From Candidatus Pullilachnospira intestinigallinarum (lineage in GTDB: Bacteria; Bacillota; Clostridia; Lachnospirales; Lachnospiraceae): a stretch of DNA of 64,000 nucleotides. A program made the translations under genes and the position numbers. The notes beneath the pieces were generated by a model. It was given only the letters and a program-made list of their open reading frames with translations, was not told the DNA's origin and ran no database searches. This document shows positions 8,122 through 15,010 of this stretch, piece by piece (positions within the stretch are counted from its first letter, which is position 1; each line of letters starts with the position of its first letter). The DNA lies in the NCBI GenBank assembly GCA_018711275.1, contig DVIN01000051.1:1-64000 (forward strand), written 5' to 3'.

Positions 8122-8472
8122 CTATAACTCCTCTAATATCTGATGGGAAATCGTCTCAACCGCAGCCATAACGGCGGCGATGTCCTTCCCTTCATAATTC
8201 TGTGTCAGCTGATGAATCTCGCCCACCTTCTCCCGGATGGAAACGAACCGTTCCACCAGATGAAGTTTTTCCTCGTAATCATTCAGCGTCTTCGTGCTGC
8301 GCTTCACCAGGTCGTGAATCCCCTGACGGCTGATGCCCTGATCCTGGGCGATCTCACTGAGGGAATAATCGTTGAGAACCACATCCTCATATACCCGGCG
8401 CTGGTGCTCCGTCAGAAGCTCCCCGTAAAAATCGTACAGCAGTGCCTGTCTCGCAAGTTTATCCATGTGCAT
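8122..8472 (-). CDS. ylxM: YlxM/p13-like SRP-associated helix-turn-helix protein
   Basis: MDKLARQALLYDFYGELLTEHQRRVYEDVVLNDYSLSEIAQDQGISRQGIHDLVKR; start ATG at 8472 or 8466. Confidence 0.9.
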   Translation of the reverse strand: MHMDKLARQALLYDFYGELLTEHQRRVYEDVVLNDYSLSEIAQDQGISRQGIHDLVKRSTKTLNDYEEKLHLVERFVSIREKVGEIHQLTQNYEGKDIAAVMAAVETISHQILEEL

Positions 8473-8482
8473 CACCTTGGAC

Positions 8483-8511
8483 ATGATACAACAGATTTTT
8501 TGGGGTGTCAA
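8483..8511 (-). promoter_or_regulatory. SigA-type promoter of the ylxM-ffh operon
   Basis: Minus strand TTGACA-N17-TATCAT. Confidence 0.7.
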
Positions 8512-8796
8512 GTGTTTTTTCTTGACAAGATAAAAATTTATTTTTTGATTTTGCGTTTTGCTTTTCGGCGGGCTTTTGAGGTGGACGTAACTTTGTCTTC
8601 AGTAATAGGGGATTTTGTTACTTTCTGATGTTCCTTCCTTTCCTGCCGCTGCAGATGAACTTTTGTCGATATTATGATATTATATGGATTGATTTTTGTA
8701 TTTTTATGGTAATGCTTCTTTATGATATGTTCGGGATGAACGGTTTACTTTCTGTTTTTTCTTTGTGGAAGCGTTCTATGGTGCTTAAAGCTGACG

Positions 8797-9010
8797 GAAC
8801 GGTTACCTCTTGTCTTTTCTCCCCTGGAACCGTTCCCCAGCACCTGGCCGAACGGTTACCTCCTGCAGTTTCCCTGCTAAAACCGTTCCCCGGCACATGA
8901 TCGAACGGTTACCTCCTGCAGTTTCTCTTCCAGAACCGTATCCTGATACCTGGCGGAATGGTTATTCTCCTAGATTTCTCATTTCTCTTACGAAACCATT
9001 TCTCAACCGT
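8797..9010. repeat. Array 1: four tandem 53-bp stem-loop units, 3' of larE
   Basis: GAACGGTT at 8797, 8850, 8903 and GAATGGTT at 8956; AACCGTTC partner arm in units 1-2, diverged in units 3-4. Confidence 0.85.
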
Positions 9011-9899
9011 GGTCTGCAGCGCTGCATTCCTCACTGCCATCCATTTTCAAAAATTCCGGCGTATACTCCTCCGCCTTCCCATCATCGGCCTCCGGGATGT
9101 CCATGCTTCCGGACCGGAATCCTTCCAGATCCAGGGTCACATAAGGAAAGCCCAGCGATTTCAGAATTCGGACAATAAAATCCTTCAGCTGCACTGCCAG
9201 AGCAAGTTTTTCCGGTTCCACCTCGATTCTGGCCACCGGCGCATGGTAGCGGACCCGTACCACGGGAAATCCCAGTTGGCGCACTGCCTCTTCCGCCGCC
9301 TCAATCCGCCGCAGAAACTGAAGATCCAGCCGGGCGCCGTAGGGAAGCCGGGTGGCCATGCAGGGAGCCGACGGGCGGCTGGCCACCTGAATCCCGGCTT
9401 CCCGGGCCAGCTGGCGCACCTCCGCTTTGGTGATCTGACACTGGGCCAGCGGGCTGTAAACGCCCAGCTCCCGCACCGCCTGCAGGCCGGGCCGGTATAC
9501 CGACAGATCGTCCTGGTTGGTTCCCTCCAGAAATGTGGAAATCCCCCGCTCCTTTCCAAACCGGATCAGCTGTTCAAAAAGTCCTTTCTTGCACAGATAG
9601 CACCGGTTTCTGGGATTGTCTGCGATCTCGGCAAATTCCAGTTCATTGACGGTAATTACTTTGTGAAGAATTCCCGCGTCCCGGGCCGACTGCCGGGCTG
9701 CCTCCAGATCCGCCGCCGGGTGCAGCACTGTGTCAAAGGTCACCCCGTACACTTTCGTTTGATTTTTGGCGGCATATTTTCCCGCCCACCAGGCCAGAAG
9801 GGCGCTGTCCACACCGCCGGACAATGCCAGGCAGACATCCTGCTTTGTATACTCGTCCATCAGGGCGGCCAGCTGCTGTTTTTTTTCTTCCAGTGTCAT
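9003..9899 (-). CDS. larE: ATP-dependent sacrificial sulfur transferase LarE
   Basis: MTLEEKKQQLAALMDEYTKQDVCLALSGGVDSALLAWW PP-loop; CYLCKKGLF; adjacent to larC and larB. Confidence 0.9.
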   Translation of the reverse strand: MTLEEKKQQLAALMDEYTKQDVCLALSGGVDSALLAWWAGKYAAKNQTKVYGVTFDTVLHPAADLEAARQSARDAGILHKVITVNELEFAEIADNPRNRCYLCKKGLFEQLIRFGKERGISTFLEGTNQDDLSVYRPGLQAVRELGVYSPLAQCQITKAEVRQLAREAGIQVASRPSAPCMATRLPYGARLDLQFLRRIEAAEEAVRQLGFPVVRVRYHAPVARIEVEPEKLALAVQLKDFIVRILKSLGFPYVTLDLEGFRSGSMDIPEADDGKAEEYTPEFLKMDGSEECSAADHG

Positions 9900-9904
9900 A
9901 TTTC

Positions 9905-9985
9905 CTCTCTTTCCGGCCGCATGGCCATAAAGGTATCCCCGCAGGGGGTTCCTCTCTTTCCGGCCGCATGGCCATAAAGGTATCT
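9905..9985 (-). repeat. Copy C of mini-repeat family (about 1.6 tandem units, 47-bp period), larC-larE intergenic
   Basis: TTCCGGCCGCATGGCCATAAAGGTATC at 9911 and 9958 on + strand. Confidence 0.8.
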
Positions 9986-9987
9986 GC

Positions 9988-11202
9988 TTATTTCCAGGCC
10001 TTCTCCGCCTCCCGGTATACCTGACCGAAAGGCACATCGGCCGCAAGGCTTAGCGCTTTCACATCCTCATACTCCGGATAGCCCCGCTGCTCCTCTCCCA
10101 GGCTGCACACCTTCACCCGCACATTCCCCCAGGGGGTCCGGGCCGTCGCCATGCGGCGGGGAAGCACCGTGCGCTGCACCGGATACCGGCGGATCCCGAT
10201 GGTGGTGGTTTCCCGGAAAATCAGACGCTCCAGTTTCTCCATATCTTCCCGGCGGCACAGCACCTGAAGCTGCCAGGCCGGACGGGATTTCTTCATAAAT
10301 ACCGGCAGATAACAGGCGTCCAGCGCTCCGCTATCCAGCAGCCGCTCCTGGACATATCCCAGTTGTTCTCCGGTACAGTCATCCACATTGGTCTCCAAAA
10401 CCCATACGGCGTCCCCGGATTCCTGCGGCGCTTTCTCTGCATCGGAGACGGTTTTCGGTTCCTCTTCCTCCTTTGCCGGACGCACCCACATGGCCCGCAG
10501 GATATTGGCATGTGTAAAATCCTTCTCCCCGGAACCGATGCCGATCTTTTCAATCACAAATTCCTCCGGAAGCCGGCAGTTGCCGCAGGCCGCCGCGATA
10601 GCCGCACCTGTGGGGGTAATCATTTCTCCCTGGGTATCGGTGATTTTCACCGCAAGGTGATACCGGGCGATCAGCTGCGCCGTGGCAGGCACCGGCACCG
10701 GCATCCTGCCGTGCTGGCACCAGGAAGTCCCCTGGCCCTCCCGGAGGGTGCCGATGGCGATCTTCTCCGCTCCCAGATCTTCCAGGCAGATGGCAACTCC
10801 CACAATGTCAATGATGGAATCCACCGCCCCCACCTCGTGAAAATGCACCTGCTCCGGAGTGGTGCCGTGAACTGCGGCCTCCGCCTCCGCCAGCACGCCG
10901 AAAATGGCCAGCGCCCGCTCCTTTACCCTGGACTCCAGCTGCGATTCCTCCAGCATCTGACGGATCTGCCGGTAATTCCGGGCAGGCTGCGGCTTTGCGG
11001 CGTCCATCTCCACGAAAAACGCGCAGGCGTCAATGCCGCATTTCTCCGTTCTTCCGATCACCAGGCGATACCCCTCCAGGGGCAGTTTCGCAATCTCTCT
11101 TTTCAGATATTCCCGGTCCGCTCCCAGATCCAACAGGGCGCTGACTGTCATATCCCCGCTGATACCGGAGCTGCCTTCCAGATATAAAATCCTGTCACTC
11201 AT
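9988..11202 (-). CDS. larC: Nickel pincer cofactor biosynthesis protein LarC
   Basis: MSDRILYLEGSSGISGDMTVSALLDLGAD, HFHEVGAVDSIIDIVG, ETNVDDCTGEQLGYV. Confidence 0.92.
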   Translation of the reverse strand: MSDRILYLEGSSGISGDMTVSALLDLGADREYLKREIAKLPLEGYRLVIGRTEKCGIDACAFFVEMDAAKPQPARNYRQIRQMLEESQLESRVKERALAIFGVLAEAEAAVHGTTPEQVHFHEVGAVDSIIDIVGVAICLEDLGAEKIAIGTLREGQGTSWCQHGRMPVPVPATAQLIARYHLAVKITDTQGEMITPTGAAIAAACGNCRLPEEFVIEKIGIGSGEKDFTHANILRAMWVRPAKEEEEPKTVSDAEKAPQESGDAVWVLETNVDDCTGEQLGYVQERLLDSGALDACYLPVFMKKSRPAWQLQVLCRREDMEKLERLIFRETTTIGIRRYPVQRTVLPRRMATARTPWGNVRVKVCSLGEEQRGYPEYEDVKALSLAADVPFGQVYREAEKAWK

Positions 11203-11999
11203 CTTTCTCCTCCGTTTCCATCCTCACGCTCTGCCCCATGGCCGGATAAGGTATTCCCATTTACCGCCAGCCGGTTAATCTGGGTTGCCATATAACCCGC
11301 CCCGAAACCATTGTCAATATTTACCACAGCGATTCCTTCCGCGCAGGAGTTCAGCATGGTAAGAAGCGGCGCCAGTCCGTGAAATCCCGCTCCGTATCCC
11401 ACGGATGTGGGTACCGCAATCACCGGATGTTCCACAAGGCCCGCCACCACACCGGGCAGCGCCCCCTCCATGCCGGCCACCGCCACGATGGCATTGGCCG
11501 CCCGCAGATCCTCCAGACGGGCAATCAGCCGGTGAATTCCCGCCACACCCACATCAAAAATCCGATTCACCCGGCTGCCGAAAAACTCCGCAGTCCTGGC
11601 CGCTTCCTCCGCCACCGGGATATCCGTGGTGCCTCCGGTGCAGACCACCACATTCCCGATCAGCTCCGGTTTCTCATACTGCAGGCAGATGGTCTGGGAA
11701 GCCTCCTCATAAACCGCCTCCGGAATCACCGCATGTACCGCCTCAAACTGTTCACGGCTGGCTCTGGTGGCCAGCACATTTTCCTGCCGACTGGCAAAAC
11801 TCTGAAAAATCCTGACCATATGCTCCAGGGTTTTCCCCGGGCTGTAAATCACCTCGCCAAAACCGGACCGGAGTCCCCGGTGATGATCAATTTTCGCGCA
11901 TCCGATATCTTCATAGGGAAGCTTCTTAAAATAATCCTCCGCTTCCGCCAGATCCACTTCTCCCCGCTGCACCTTCAGCAGCATTTCATGTACGTCCAT
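11199..11999 (-). CDS. larB: Nickel pincer cofactor biosynthesis protein LarB
   Basis: PurE-like: VVCTGGTTDIPVAEEAARTAEFFG, VAGMEGALPGVVAGLVEHPVIAVPTSVGYGAGFHGLAPLLTMLNSCAEGIAVVNIDNGFGAGYMA. Confidence 0.92.
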   Translation of the reverse strand: MDVHEMLLKVQRGEVDLAEAEDYFKKLPYEDIGCAKIDHHRGLRSGFGEVIYSPGKTLEHMVRIFQSFASRQENVLATRASREQFEAVHAVIPEAVYEEASQTICLQYEKPELIGNVVVCTGGTTDIPVAEEAARTAEFFGSRVNRIFDVGVAGIHRLIARLEDLRAANAIVAVAGMEGALPGVVAGLVEHPVIAVPTSVGYGAGFHGLAPLLTMLNSCAEGIAVVNIDNGFGAGYMATQINRLAVNGNTLSGHGAEREDGNGGER

Positions 12000-12261
12000 G
12001 TCAATCCTCCTTGCCTGTGCCGCGCAGACGCCTGCCTGCGGGCTGTCGATTCACTCAGACGGAAAACACCACGGAATCCTGTCGTTTCTGACGATAAAAA
12101 TCCACAGAGTACGCTTTCCATCCTATATTTTACTACGGTTCTATGGTATAGAAAAGAAATATTTGGCGAATGCCAGACCGGGCCTTCTGTCTGCCGGGAA
12201 AGGCCCAACTTTTAAACATATAGAAGGTGTGCAAAACAGGTCTTCTATTTGTATGTAATTA

Positions 12262-12292
12262 AGTGTACAGCCTGGAGTATACTCCAGGTCAA
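12262..12292 (-). promoter_or_regulatory. Candidate MerR-family-controlled promoter with 18-bp perfect palindrome
   Basis: Minus strand TTGACC-TGGAGTATACTCCAGGCTG(19 bp)-TACACT; CCTGGAGTATACTCCAGG at 12271-12288. Confidence 0.65.
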
Positions 12293-12519
12293 GGGAAATC
12301 AAACGACAATGGGACAAACTTTTGCTTTTCCGCGGGTGTGAAAGCGCACGATCTGTTTTTGGGGTGAAATGCAGGCAGGTTCTTCTGTGCTGTTGGGGGT
12401 TGCGAAAATGAAGCAATCTGTCATGGAGAAATACCATTCCACATAATGGAAACATCGTGAGCGAAGATCCGTAAAATTCAGAGTCATAATTTACAGCTGG
12501 TAAGACAGAGGGCTTTTTC

Positions 12520-12890
12520 TGCGGGGTTAAATTACATTTTCTGGTTTCTTGCCGTAGAATTGGACGGTTTTATACAGGTCTAAATCGCATTTCCTCATTT
12601 TTAGCCGTAGTTACAGGCTGGGTTATACGGTTTCAAATTGCGTTTCCTGGTTTTCAACCGTAGTTTTGACTGGTTTCCTACGGGGCTAAATTGCATTTCC
12701 TGATTTTCAACCGTAGTTACTGGCTGGGTTATACGGTTCCAAGTTGCATTTCCTGGTTTTCAACCGTAGGCATAAGCAGATTTATACGGTTATAAATCGC
12801 GTTTCCTAACTTCTAGCCGTAGGCATGGCCGGGGTCATACGGGGGCAAATCACAATTGTTGGTTTCCCGCCGCAGAACCGGACGTATTCT
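12520..12890. repeat. Array 2: seven tandem 53-bp stem-loop units between larB and glmS
   Basis: Unit starts 12520, 12573, 12626, 12679, 12732, 12785, 12838; TACGGTT...AACCGTA arms around a CATTTCCTG-like core. Confidence 0.88.
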
Positions 12891-13049
12891 ATGGTTTTAT
12901 TCACATAAACAAATTTTGTCTTGTAATTCCAGTCAAGCGGATCCCAATCCGGTTGTTTTCTGTTAAGTATTCTCACCCATCTCTCATCCGTTTCGCGGAT
13001 CATTTGTCTGCCGCAGATATCAAATATCCGTATCAAGTCGGAAATCTGT

Positions 13050-13102
13050 ATTTAAATGAAAGAGTGAGCAACCTTTAAAATTGCCCACTCTTTCATTAAG
13101 TA
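13050..13102 (-). terminator. Terminator hairpin downstream of glmS
   Basis: AATGAAAGAGTGGGCAATTTTAAAGGTTGCTCACTCTTTCATT on minus strand. Confidence 0.65.
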
Positions 13103-13168
13103 TCTTCTGCCTGCCATCGTGATCCTTGCGTCAAATGGGGCAGCTCATGTCTCTCATTTCCCGCAAAA

Positions 13169-15010
13169 TCACTCCACCGTCACGCTTTTGGCGAGATTTC
13201 TGGGTTTATCCACGTCCAGGCCTTTTGCCACGGATACATAATAGCCCATCAGCTGCAGCGGTATCACCGCCAGGGAGGTGGCAAAATGGGGATCTGTCCT
13301 GGGGATATACGTGACGAAATCCGCAGTATCTTCCATATTATAATTGCCATAGGATGTGAGTCCCATCAGATAGGCGCCGCGGCTCTTGCACTCCACCATG
13401 TTGCTGACGGTTTTTTCATACAGCTCGGGCTGGGTGGCCACTCCGATCACCAGGGTGCCGTCCTCAATGAGGGAAATGGTTCCGTGTTTCAGTTCTCCGG
13501 CGGCGTATGCCTCGGAATGAATGTAGCTGATTTCCTTCATTTTCAGGCTGCCTTCCATGCTGATGGCGTAGTCCAGCCCTCTTCCGATGAAGAACACATC
13601 CCGGGCATTCACCTGTTTGGCGGCGAACCACTGGAGCCGTTCTTTATCCTCGATGATCCGGCGGATCTTATCCGGCAGGGTCTTCATTTCCTGAATATAG
13701 CCTGCATATGCTTCCTGATCAATAGTCTGACGGATCAGGGCGAACTGGACAGCCAGCACATAAATGGCAATCAGCTGGGTGCTGTAGGCTTTGGTGGTGG
13801 CCACGGAAATCTCCGGTCCGGCCAGGGTATAAAATACATTGTCCGCCTCCCGGGCAATGGAGGATCCCACCACGTTGACGATTCCCAGGGTCCAGACGCC
13901 TTTCTCCTTCGCCTCCCGAAGCGCCGCCAGACTGTCGGCGGTCTCTCCGGACTGACTGATGATAATAGCCAGACTGCCCTCCGCTTCCAGAAGCGGTTTC
14001 CGGTAACGGAATTCGGAGGCCAGCTCCACACGCACCGGAATCCGGGTCAGATCCTCAAAAATGTACTGGGCCGCCATACCCACATGATAGGCAGAACCGC
14101 AGGCAACAATATAAATCTGACGAAGTTTCTGAATTTCCTCTTCCTCAAGGCCCAGATCCGTAAGATCAAAGGCATCGCCCTTCAGCACGGAATTCAGGGT
14201 ATCCTCCACGGCTTTGGGCTGCTCGTGGATTTCCTTCATCATGAAATGCTCAAAGCCGCCTTTTTCCGCTGCCTCCGCATCCCACTCAATGGTCTTCAGA
14301 TCCTTGGAGATTTCCTCACCGTCCAGATTGTAGAAAGTGATTTCCCCTTTGCGTACCCGGGCCATTTCCATGTTGCCGATGTAATAGACATTTCGGGTGT
14401 ATTTCAGGATCGCCGGCACATCGGAAGCCAGATAGGATTCCCCGTCCGCCACACCCAGAATCATGGGGCTGTCTTTTCTGGCGGCATAAATTTCCTCCGG
14501 GTAATCTTTAAACATCACCGCCAGGGCATAAGAACCGCGGATGCGGACCATGGAATGGTTGATGGCATCCACCGGGGTGCCCTCGTATTTCTTATAATAA
14601 TAGTCAATGAGTTTTACAGCCACTTCCGTGTCTGTCTCAGAGTAAAAGGTATATCCCTTTCTCAGCAGCTTATCCTTCAGCTCCTGATAATTCTCAATAA
14701 TGCCGTTGTGAACGGCGATGACATTTCCATCATCGCTGACATGGGGATGGGCGTTGCTCTCAGAGGGTTCTCCGTGGGTTGCCCAACGGGTATGGCCGAT
14801 GCCGCAGGTGCCGCCAACTGCCATCCCTCCATTGGTCTTTTCCGACAGAACCTTCAATCTGCCCTTTGCTTTGATAATCTCAGCAACCTTCTCCCCGTCC
14901 CGCACCGCGAGACCGGCAGAATCATACCCTCGGTACTCCAGTTTGGAAAGACCATCCAGAAGAATGGGGGCCGCCTGATGTGTGCCTGTAAAGCCAACGA
15001 TTCCACACAT
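13169..15010 (-). CDS. glmS: Glutamine-fructose-6-phosphate aminotransferase
   Basis: MCGIVGFTGTHQAAPILLDGLSKLEYRGYDSAG ... LAKSVTVE. Confidence 0.97.
   Translation of the reverse strand: MCGIVGFTGTHQAAPILLDGLSKLEYRGYDSAGLAVRDGEKVAEIIKAKGRLKVLSEKTNGGMAVGGTCGIGHTRWATHGEPSESNAHPHVSDDGNVIAVHNGIIENYQELKDKLLRKGYTFYSETDTEVAVKLIDYYYKKYEGTPVDAINHSMVRIRGSYALAVMFKDYPEEIYAARKDSPMILGVADGESYLASDVPAILKYTRNVYYIGNMEMARVRKGEITFYNLDGEEISKDLKTIEWDAEAAEKGGFEHFMMKEIHEQPKAVEDTLNSVLKGDAFDLTDLGLEEEEIQKLRQIYIVACGSAYHVGMAAQYIFEDLTRIPVRVELASEFRYRKPLLEAEGSLAIIISQSGETADSLAALREAKEKGVWTLGIVNVVGSSIAREADNVFYTLAGPEISVATTKAYSTQLIAIYVLAVQFALIRQTIDQEAYAGYIQEMKTLPDKIRRIIEDKERLQWFAAKQVNARDVFFIGRGLDYAISMEGSLKMKEISYIHSEAYAAGELKHGTISLIEDGTLVIGVATQPELYEKTVSNMVECKSRGAYLMGLTSYGNYNMEDTADFVTYIPRTDPHFATSLAVIPLQLMGYYVSVAKGLDVDKPRNLAKSVTVE

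Follow-up and report, generated by a model that had tools for sequence, protein, structure and literature searches.

A 64,000-nucleotide stretch of the genome of Candidatus Pullilachnospira intestinigallinarum, a member of the Lachnospiraceae (GCA_018711275.1, contig DVIN01000051.1, positions 1 to 64,000; referred to as the window), carries two arrays of the inverted repeat ACGGTT-N23-AACCGT at 53-bp steps. We followed these arrays through their own genome and across related genomes. They are probably one part of a chromosomal population of phased dyad binding sites for a single cognate protein, a PD-(D/E)XK-like protein of 264 amino acids (aa). Five observations carry this reading: arrays adjoin the gene for the protein, the half-site matches the protein lineage, arrays with the same half-site are dispersed in several genomes, the units follow rigid steps of about a helical turn, and half-sites are conserved over loops.

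The arrays form a genome-wide population without linkage to lar genes

The genome that contains the window (G000, 2.84 Mb; labels beginning with G, C and L denote genomes, contigs and loci) holds 84 single ACGGTT units, compared with 4 for a reversed-pattern control, and at least 13 arrays that each contain three units or more. Scanning 84,980 species genomes turned up 101 stretches with two exact ACGGTT units; those fetched as loci all belong to Lachnospiraceae or close relatives (Blautia, Mediterraneibacter, Eisenbergiella, Drancourtella, Roseburia, and similar genera), and many derive from poultry gut. In a sample of 397 genomes of the family, five carry ACGGTT arrays. An earlier reading of the window from its letters alone (the sequence-only reading) had proposed that the shared geometry marks one undescribed repeat family and that similar arrays be sought elsewhere. 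These counts support that proposal, and the family proved to be one half-site specificity within a wider design.

None of the 89 non-redundant arrays overlaps a predicted gene, and they occur in every gene orientation with no clear orientation bias; the codirectional, divergent, and convergent counts rest on an incomplete codon-bias gene caller that skipped the partner gene described below. The sequence-only reading had also raised a functional link to the lar genes that the window's arrays flank. This link is unsupported, and lar-linked regulation was rejected: larB is present in most tested genomes, with or without arrays, four other array-bearing genomes have no ACGGTT array near larB, and the remaining arrays adjoin unrelated genes when neighbors are tabulated. 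The arrays are a genome-wide population, without lar linkage. A phage or plasmid origin was likewise rejected, as there was no two-unit ACGGTT match in IMG/VR, no DNA match in plasmids or phages, and no confirmed relative of the 264-aa protein in IMG/VR.

Several G000 arrays (on C6, C8, C54, and C70) lie close to contig ends. Such repeats probably break draft assemblies, and array numbers from metagenome-assembled genomes would be underestimates. Separately, the arrays on C54 and C67 of G000 (L141:7932-8473 and L145:7985-8503) share about 190 bp of common flank beyond the array, so the duplicated segment was larger than the array itself; the assembly holds only these two copies.

Half-sites and spacing are rigid while loops diverge

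When 39 independent array types are compared, information is close to its maximum in the half-sites; in the loop, positions 3-4 after ACGGTT are AA, an A-tract surrounds the dyad center, and there is a weaker mirrored TT. The gap between half-sites is 23 bp in 93% of cases and the spacer between units is 18 bp in 92%; loss of a single base is occasionally tolerated, and other length changes are rare. One spacer of the Eisenbergiella-type element (see below) is 27-28 bp, about one helical turn longer, and arrays upstream of distant partner-gene copies repeat every 53, 64, or 75 bp, in steps of 11. The 53-bp unit itself corresponds to about five helical turns.

Identity within an array is 96% for half-sites, 73% for loops, and 67% for spacers, a pattern unlike the unrelated spacers between identical repeats of a CRISPR array, and that candidate was rejected. 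Arrays are vertically inherited at orthologous loci with their half-sites conserved: in related species, half-sites at orthologous places are 92-100% identical, while identity falls to 41-83% in loops and 40-86% in spacers (close pairs are higher). Unit number varies between orthologous arrays, from three to seven at one locus. The 224 internal units include 176 without any mismatch and 13 that deviate at two or three of the 12 positions. Because half-sites and spacing are rigid and loops divergent, the arrays fit phased binding sites on double-stranded DNA, and sites for a protein are the natural reading of these sequences.

A gene for a 264-aa protein lies behind one of the arrays

The partner gene was found by reading the rpsI locus in genomes seemingly without arrays. 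G001, a same-genus relative of G000, seemed to have no arrays, yet it carries an array of the same design at rpsI; the rpsI-locus arrays of G001, G385, and G008 are built from other half-sites (CTAC[GT]G[CT]AG, CTACRGYAG, and TGACYGCA, respectively). In G000, rpsI is followed by an ACGGTT array and, 215 bp behind that array, by the gene. When all fetched loci were searched, the gene always stood beside an array: this was an ACGGTT array at a distance of 55-283 bp, except that in L185 and L192 the gene follows an array with a non-ACGGTT half-site. The suggestion that a partner protein might co-occur with the arrays has yielded a strong candidate, a 264-aa nuclease-like protein.

A profile of seven members detected the gene family in 116 of the 397 family genomes, including all five with ACGGTT arrays. 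Of 43 assessable loci, 33 have an array with a period of about 53 bp upstream of the gene and 5 have one downstream (Fisher p = 1e-9; shuffled sequence gave 1). Further gene loci have an upstream period of 64 bp (four loci) or 75 bp (one locus). Some gene copies are disrupted: G385, which is rich in ACGGTT arrays and has the CTACRGYAG array at rpsI, carries a second, broken copy preceded by an ACGGTT array. Copies L279 (G385:C4) and L275 (G029:C11) have an internal deletion and a frame change, and L227 (G388:C79) has a frameshift near codon 88. Another copy in G029, on C34, looks intact.

Two other protein families were considered from half-site likeness. A Myb-type partner, prompted by the resemblance to YAACNG, was rejected because PF00249 occurs in 0 of 24 genomes. 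LytTR-type regulators were also weighed; they are too numerous for a presence test.

Half-site class follows the protein lineage

Half-sites beside gene copies are diverse. They include TACGGTT, CTACGG, TTACGG, CTACGTA[CT], CTACGRAT, and TACGATTAT, as well as TGACYGC, GTTGAC, TTGACTG, TACTGT, TTACAACTG, and CAGTCGG. In the protein tree, one clade (support 100/99) contains the TGAC class and another contains the CTACG types. The TGAC class requires 1 change on the tree, versus 5.4 in shuffles, and the division into four classes requires 4, versus 11.6; none of 1,000 shuffles was as low. Since half-site class follows protein lineage, the 264-aa protein is the likely reader of the half-sites.

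We examined dispersal by reading the half-site from the gene-side array and then seeking it genome-wide, in the same genome and in others. TACGTAY-N23-RTACGTA matches 90 times in G335 and 19 times in G042, and each of 25 other genomes has 0-2 matches; the G335 matches include separate arrays on six or more contigs or contig regions. The TGACYGCA type has 8 + 13 matches in G008 (seven loci), 11 + 11 in G194 (four contigs), and 0-2 elsewhere (0-1 when G193 is set aside).

The protein resembles PD-(D/E)XK nucleases

An AlphaFold model of the 264-aa protein has a predicted local distance difference test score (pLDDT) of 91. Its C-terminal half resembles PD-(D/E)XK nucleases, with DrdV, BamHI, and Card1 (PDB) and phage endonucleases among the fold matches, and the motifs P191-D192-F193 and Y205-W206-E207-H208 are invariant in 28 relatives. 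This domain also matches the nuclease end of the PADLOC phage-defense candidates PDC-S68 (E 2.9e-25) and PDC-S69 (E 3.4e-7). The N-terminal 133 residues form a helix, a beta hairpin, and a long helix. A Pfam scan of 28 partner proteins found no transposase family and no ParB match. Fold and conserved acidic motif together place the protein within the PD-(D/E)XK superfamily as modeled, and it may be an active nuclease. Plasmid proteins that matched were nuclease domains of AAA ATPases. A 4.2-kb unannotated record labeled "Bacteriophage sp." encodes a relative with 32% identity.

Arrays and neighboring genes in the window

The window contains 10 matches to ACGGTT-N23-AACCGT at up to two mismatches, compared with 1.31 expected; 0 of 100 shuffles reached 10. 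Both arrays follow the single blueprint that the sequence-only reading described (ACGGTT-N23-AACCGT-N18, period 53) and flank larE-larC-larB, whose identities are confirmed by profile matches (Table 1). That reading had further described a related loop core in both arrays. The family-wide A-rich center is indeed common to the two, but they share no special likeness: their loop cores are 35% identical, compared with a mean of 42% for pairs of arrays in the family, and 79% of such pairs equal or exceed the 35%.

Two further repeats were noted in the window. The larE-larC gap (9900-9985) holds a direct duplication of about 40 bp (cctctctttccggccgcatggccataaaggtatc), and an in-frame 60-bp tandem repeat (1203-1693) lies within a minus-strand open reading frame of 680 aa (236-2278) and resembles a repeated 20-aa surface-protein module.

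Table 1. Arrays, neighboring genes, and the partner gene (window coordinates unless stated)
Feature	Position	Strand	Description
Array 1	8799..8939	none	Three exact ACGGTT-N23-AACCGT units at 53-bp steps: 8799-8833, 8852-8886, 8905-8939
Array 1 fringe	8740-8774; to ~9006		Degenerate unit at 8740-8774; decayed half-sites reaching ~9006
Array 2	12574..12820	none	53-bp steps; units (mismatches) at 12574 (3), 12627 (0), 12680 (2), 12733 (0), 12786 (1)
Array 2 fringe	~12520 to 12890		Decayed copies at both ends
Example half-site ACGGTT	8799..8804	+	Inverted partner AACCGT at 8828-8833
larE	9003..9899	-	TIGR00268, E 1.1e-79; neighbor only, outside the array system
larC	9988..11202	-	TIGR00299, E 1.1e-60; neighbor only, outside the array system
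larB	11199..11999	-	NF033503, E 3.3e-87; neighbor only, outside the array system
Partner gene, G000	G000:C65:103011-103802 (L143:8512-9306)		264 aa; outside the window

Weighing the alternatives

Several findings weigh against the proposal that the arrays are binding sites for the 264-aa protein. Only ACGGTT and two other half-site types have been shown to form dispersed arrays; G193 shows a gene-proximal array only, and no second array was found in 220 kb of G259 or 180 kb of G045. About a fifth of gene loci have no visible array near period 53. The ACGGTT loci were found by an exact two-unit pattern, which somewhat inflates their half-site conservation. The nuclease fold match is moderate (best PDB E 0.02, probability 0.97), and the N-terminal region has no recognizable DNA-binding fold or clear relative. 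In three cases (G385, G388, and G029), the gene is broken while arrays persist, which suggests a cycle of gain, service or parasitism, and decay.

The arrays could instead be coated by an architectural or insulator protein whose nuclease domain is idle or secondary, and be kept by selection for chromosome structure or regulation. Vertical inheritance at orthologous loci with conserved half-sites, the rigid phasing of arrays that are all intergenic without clear gene-orientation bias, and the A-tract at the dyad center would all suit such a protein. The patchiness of the arrays (5 of 397 genomes) and of the gene family (116 of 397), the broken gene copies, and the fast change of half-sites between genera better fit a dispensable system, and the nuclease motif is invariant; we consider this explanation unlikely.

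The protein might also be a defense nuclease that attacks incoming DNA, with arrays that regulate it, titrate it, or mark self. Its C-terminal domain is like the ends of PDC-S68 and PDC-S69, and gene copies are gained, lost, and broken. The likeness is confined to the nuclease domain, however, and no methylase or defense gene stands beside the partner in the loci read, although no dedicated survey was made. A defense role also leaves the chromosome-wide dispersal of the same arrays unexplained; we regard it as quite doubtful.

It is improbable that the arrays are ordinary interspersed repeats of the BOX or miniature inverted-repeat transposable element (MITE) kind, adjoining the gene by an accident of hitchhiking. 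The best argument of this sort comes from Eisenbergiella-type loci (L041, L043, L052, L056, L072, L074, L117, and L039), where the array is the core of a dispersed, mobile-looking, non-coding element of about 490-520 bp with terminal inverted repeats GTTACTTTTCAYGGGGC that appears to spread on its own. Thirty-five loci of the genome scan carry this element, eight copies of which have both ends; no defined ends with terminal inverted repeats were found for the G000 arrays. Three findings are not expected from passive spread: half-sites track the protein tree, the gene-side half-site is the dispersed half-site of that genome, and arrays lie mostly upstream rather than downstream of the gene. As a separate observation, a second hairpin-like repeat (GTTACTGTTCAGCC...GGCAGAACAGTAAC) recurs beside the ~500-bp elements in Eisenbergiella loci (e.g., L054, L071, and L041).

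We give almost no credence to transcribed RNA hairpins (terminators, riboswitches, or attenuators, possibly governing lar genes): ACGGTT and AACCGT can pair, the arrays are intergenic, and at codirectional loci of G000 the A-rich strand is the coding strand in nearly all arrays (the exception is C65:78374), but this strand bias is seen in G000 and not overall, strand relative to genes being inconsistent over all arrays (17:8 and 1:5). Comparison of 39 independent array types reveals no covariation of loop or spacer pairs, and in 429 units one-sided half-site changes are common but a compensatory double change never occurs. Rfam has nothing above any gathering score in 8400-13300 of the window, and there is no lar link.

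Comparison with known repeat-protein systems

To our knowledge, REPIN-RAYT is the main known case of dispersed bacterial intergenic repeats with an identified protein, and such cases are rare. In that system, the repeats that flank the RAYT gene also occur scattered through extragenic space (Bertels and Rainey 2011; PMC3116915). Each REP is a single imperfect palindrome that folds into a hairpin as single-stranded DNA, and the protein partner is the Y1/HUH tyrosine transposase RAYT. The arrays described here are similar in that a usually single gene is flanked by a copy of the repeat (in 33 of 43 loci upstream, at a period of about 53 bp), the same repeat is dispersed extragenically (in G335, G042, G008, G194, and the ACGGTT genomes), the repeat class is matched to the protein lineage, and inheritance is mainly vertical. 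They differ in that the dyads are phased in tandem and show no sign of selection for hairpins, and in that the partner is PD-(D/E)XK-like, not a Y1/HUH transposase. With no hairpin signature and no Y1 transposase, membership in REPIN-RAYT is excluded. REPIN-RAYT is the closest known case at the population level, and we read array and cognate protein as a two-part system that would work like it with unrelated chemistry.

The sopC site of the F plasmid, bound by SopB, consists of 12 tandem 43-bp repeats, each with an inverted repeat; it is a single plasmid locus served by a ParB-type protein with a ParA partner. Both systems have a tandem, fixed-period array of inverted sites (protein binding is predicted here) near the gene for the cognate protein. 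The present arrays, in contrast, are many, chromosomal, and intergenic, and their partner has no ParB Pfam match. BOX elements, MIRU-VNTRs, and MITEs are also intergenic and variable in unit number, and sometimes lie within an element with terminal inverted repeats; we know of no cognate protein of matching specificity described for any of them. Half-site and spacing in the present arrays differ in being strictly constrained and varying by protein lineage. PDC-S68, PDC-S69, and HEAT_CxxC_PD-DEXK share a related PD-(D/E)XK C-terminal domain, but the PDC-S68 models are large (about 1,200 positions) and the nuclease part alone matches. We know of no array association for these families.

Proposed mechanism and significance

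We infer that the 264-aa protein binds the arrays, acts as a nuclease, regulates its own gene, and has a role in array spread. Its subunits, in dimeric form, would bind the inverted half-sites, which are spaced 29 bp center to center across the A-tract and then 24 bp. Because the 53-bp unit is about five helical turns, all units would lie on the same helix face, and proteins could line up along the array on that face. Binding to the array upstream of the partner gene would control expression of that gene. Nicking or cutting at arrays, followed by repair, may cause units to be gained, lost, or copied; such a cycle would let array length vary and new intergenic places sometimes be reached.

Taken further, we put at about even the chance that this is a bacterial repeat-protein system not described before, in which a PD-(D/E)XK protein recognizes lineage-specific half-sites and maintains, copies, and lengthens phased dyad arrays chromosome-wide, with specificity changing on both sides together, as a double-strand-DNA counterpart of REPIN-RAYT. 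The open-access literature yielded no description of the arrays and protein; subscription journals and preprints fell outside this coverage, and a description elsewhere is possible.

If so, this would be a second repeat-protein pair, chemically unrelated to REPIN-RAYT. The protein is unnamed in Pfam and NCBIfam despite about 29% of sampled family genomes carrying its gene, and its arrays are probably a cause of breaks in draft assemblies of common gut bacteria. The aligned protein family is matched by a natural series of different half-sites, a dozen or more in number, so a recognition code would be directly testable, and the system would allow study of how the specificity of one protein and dozens of chromosomal sites change jointly.

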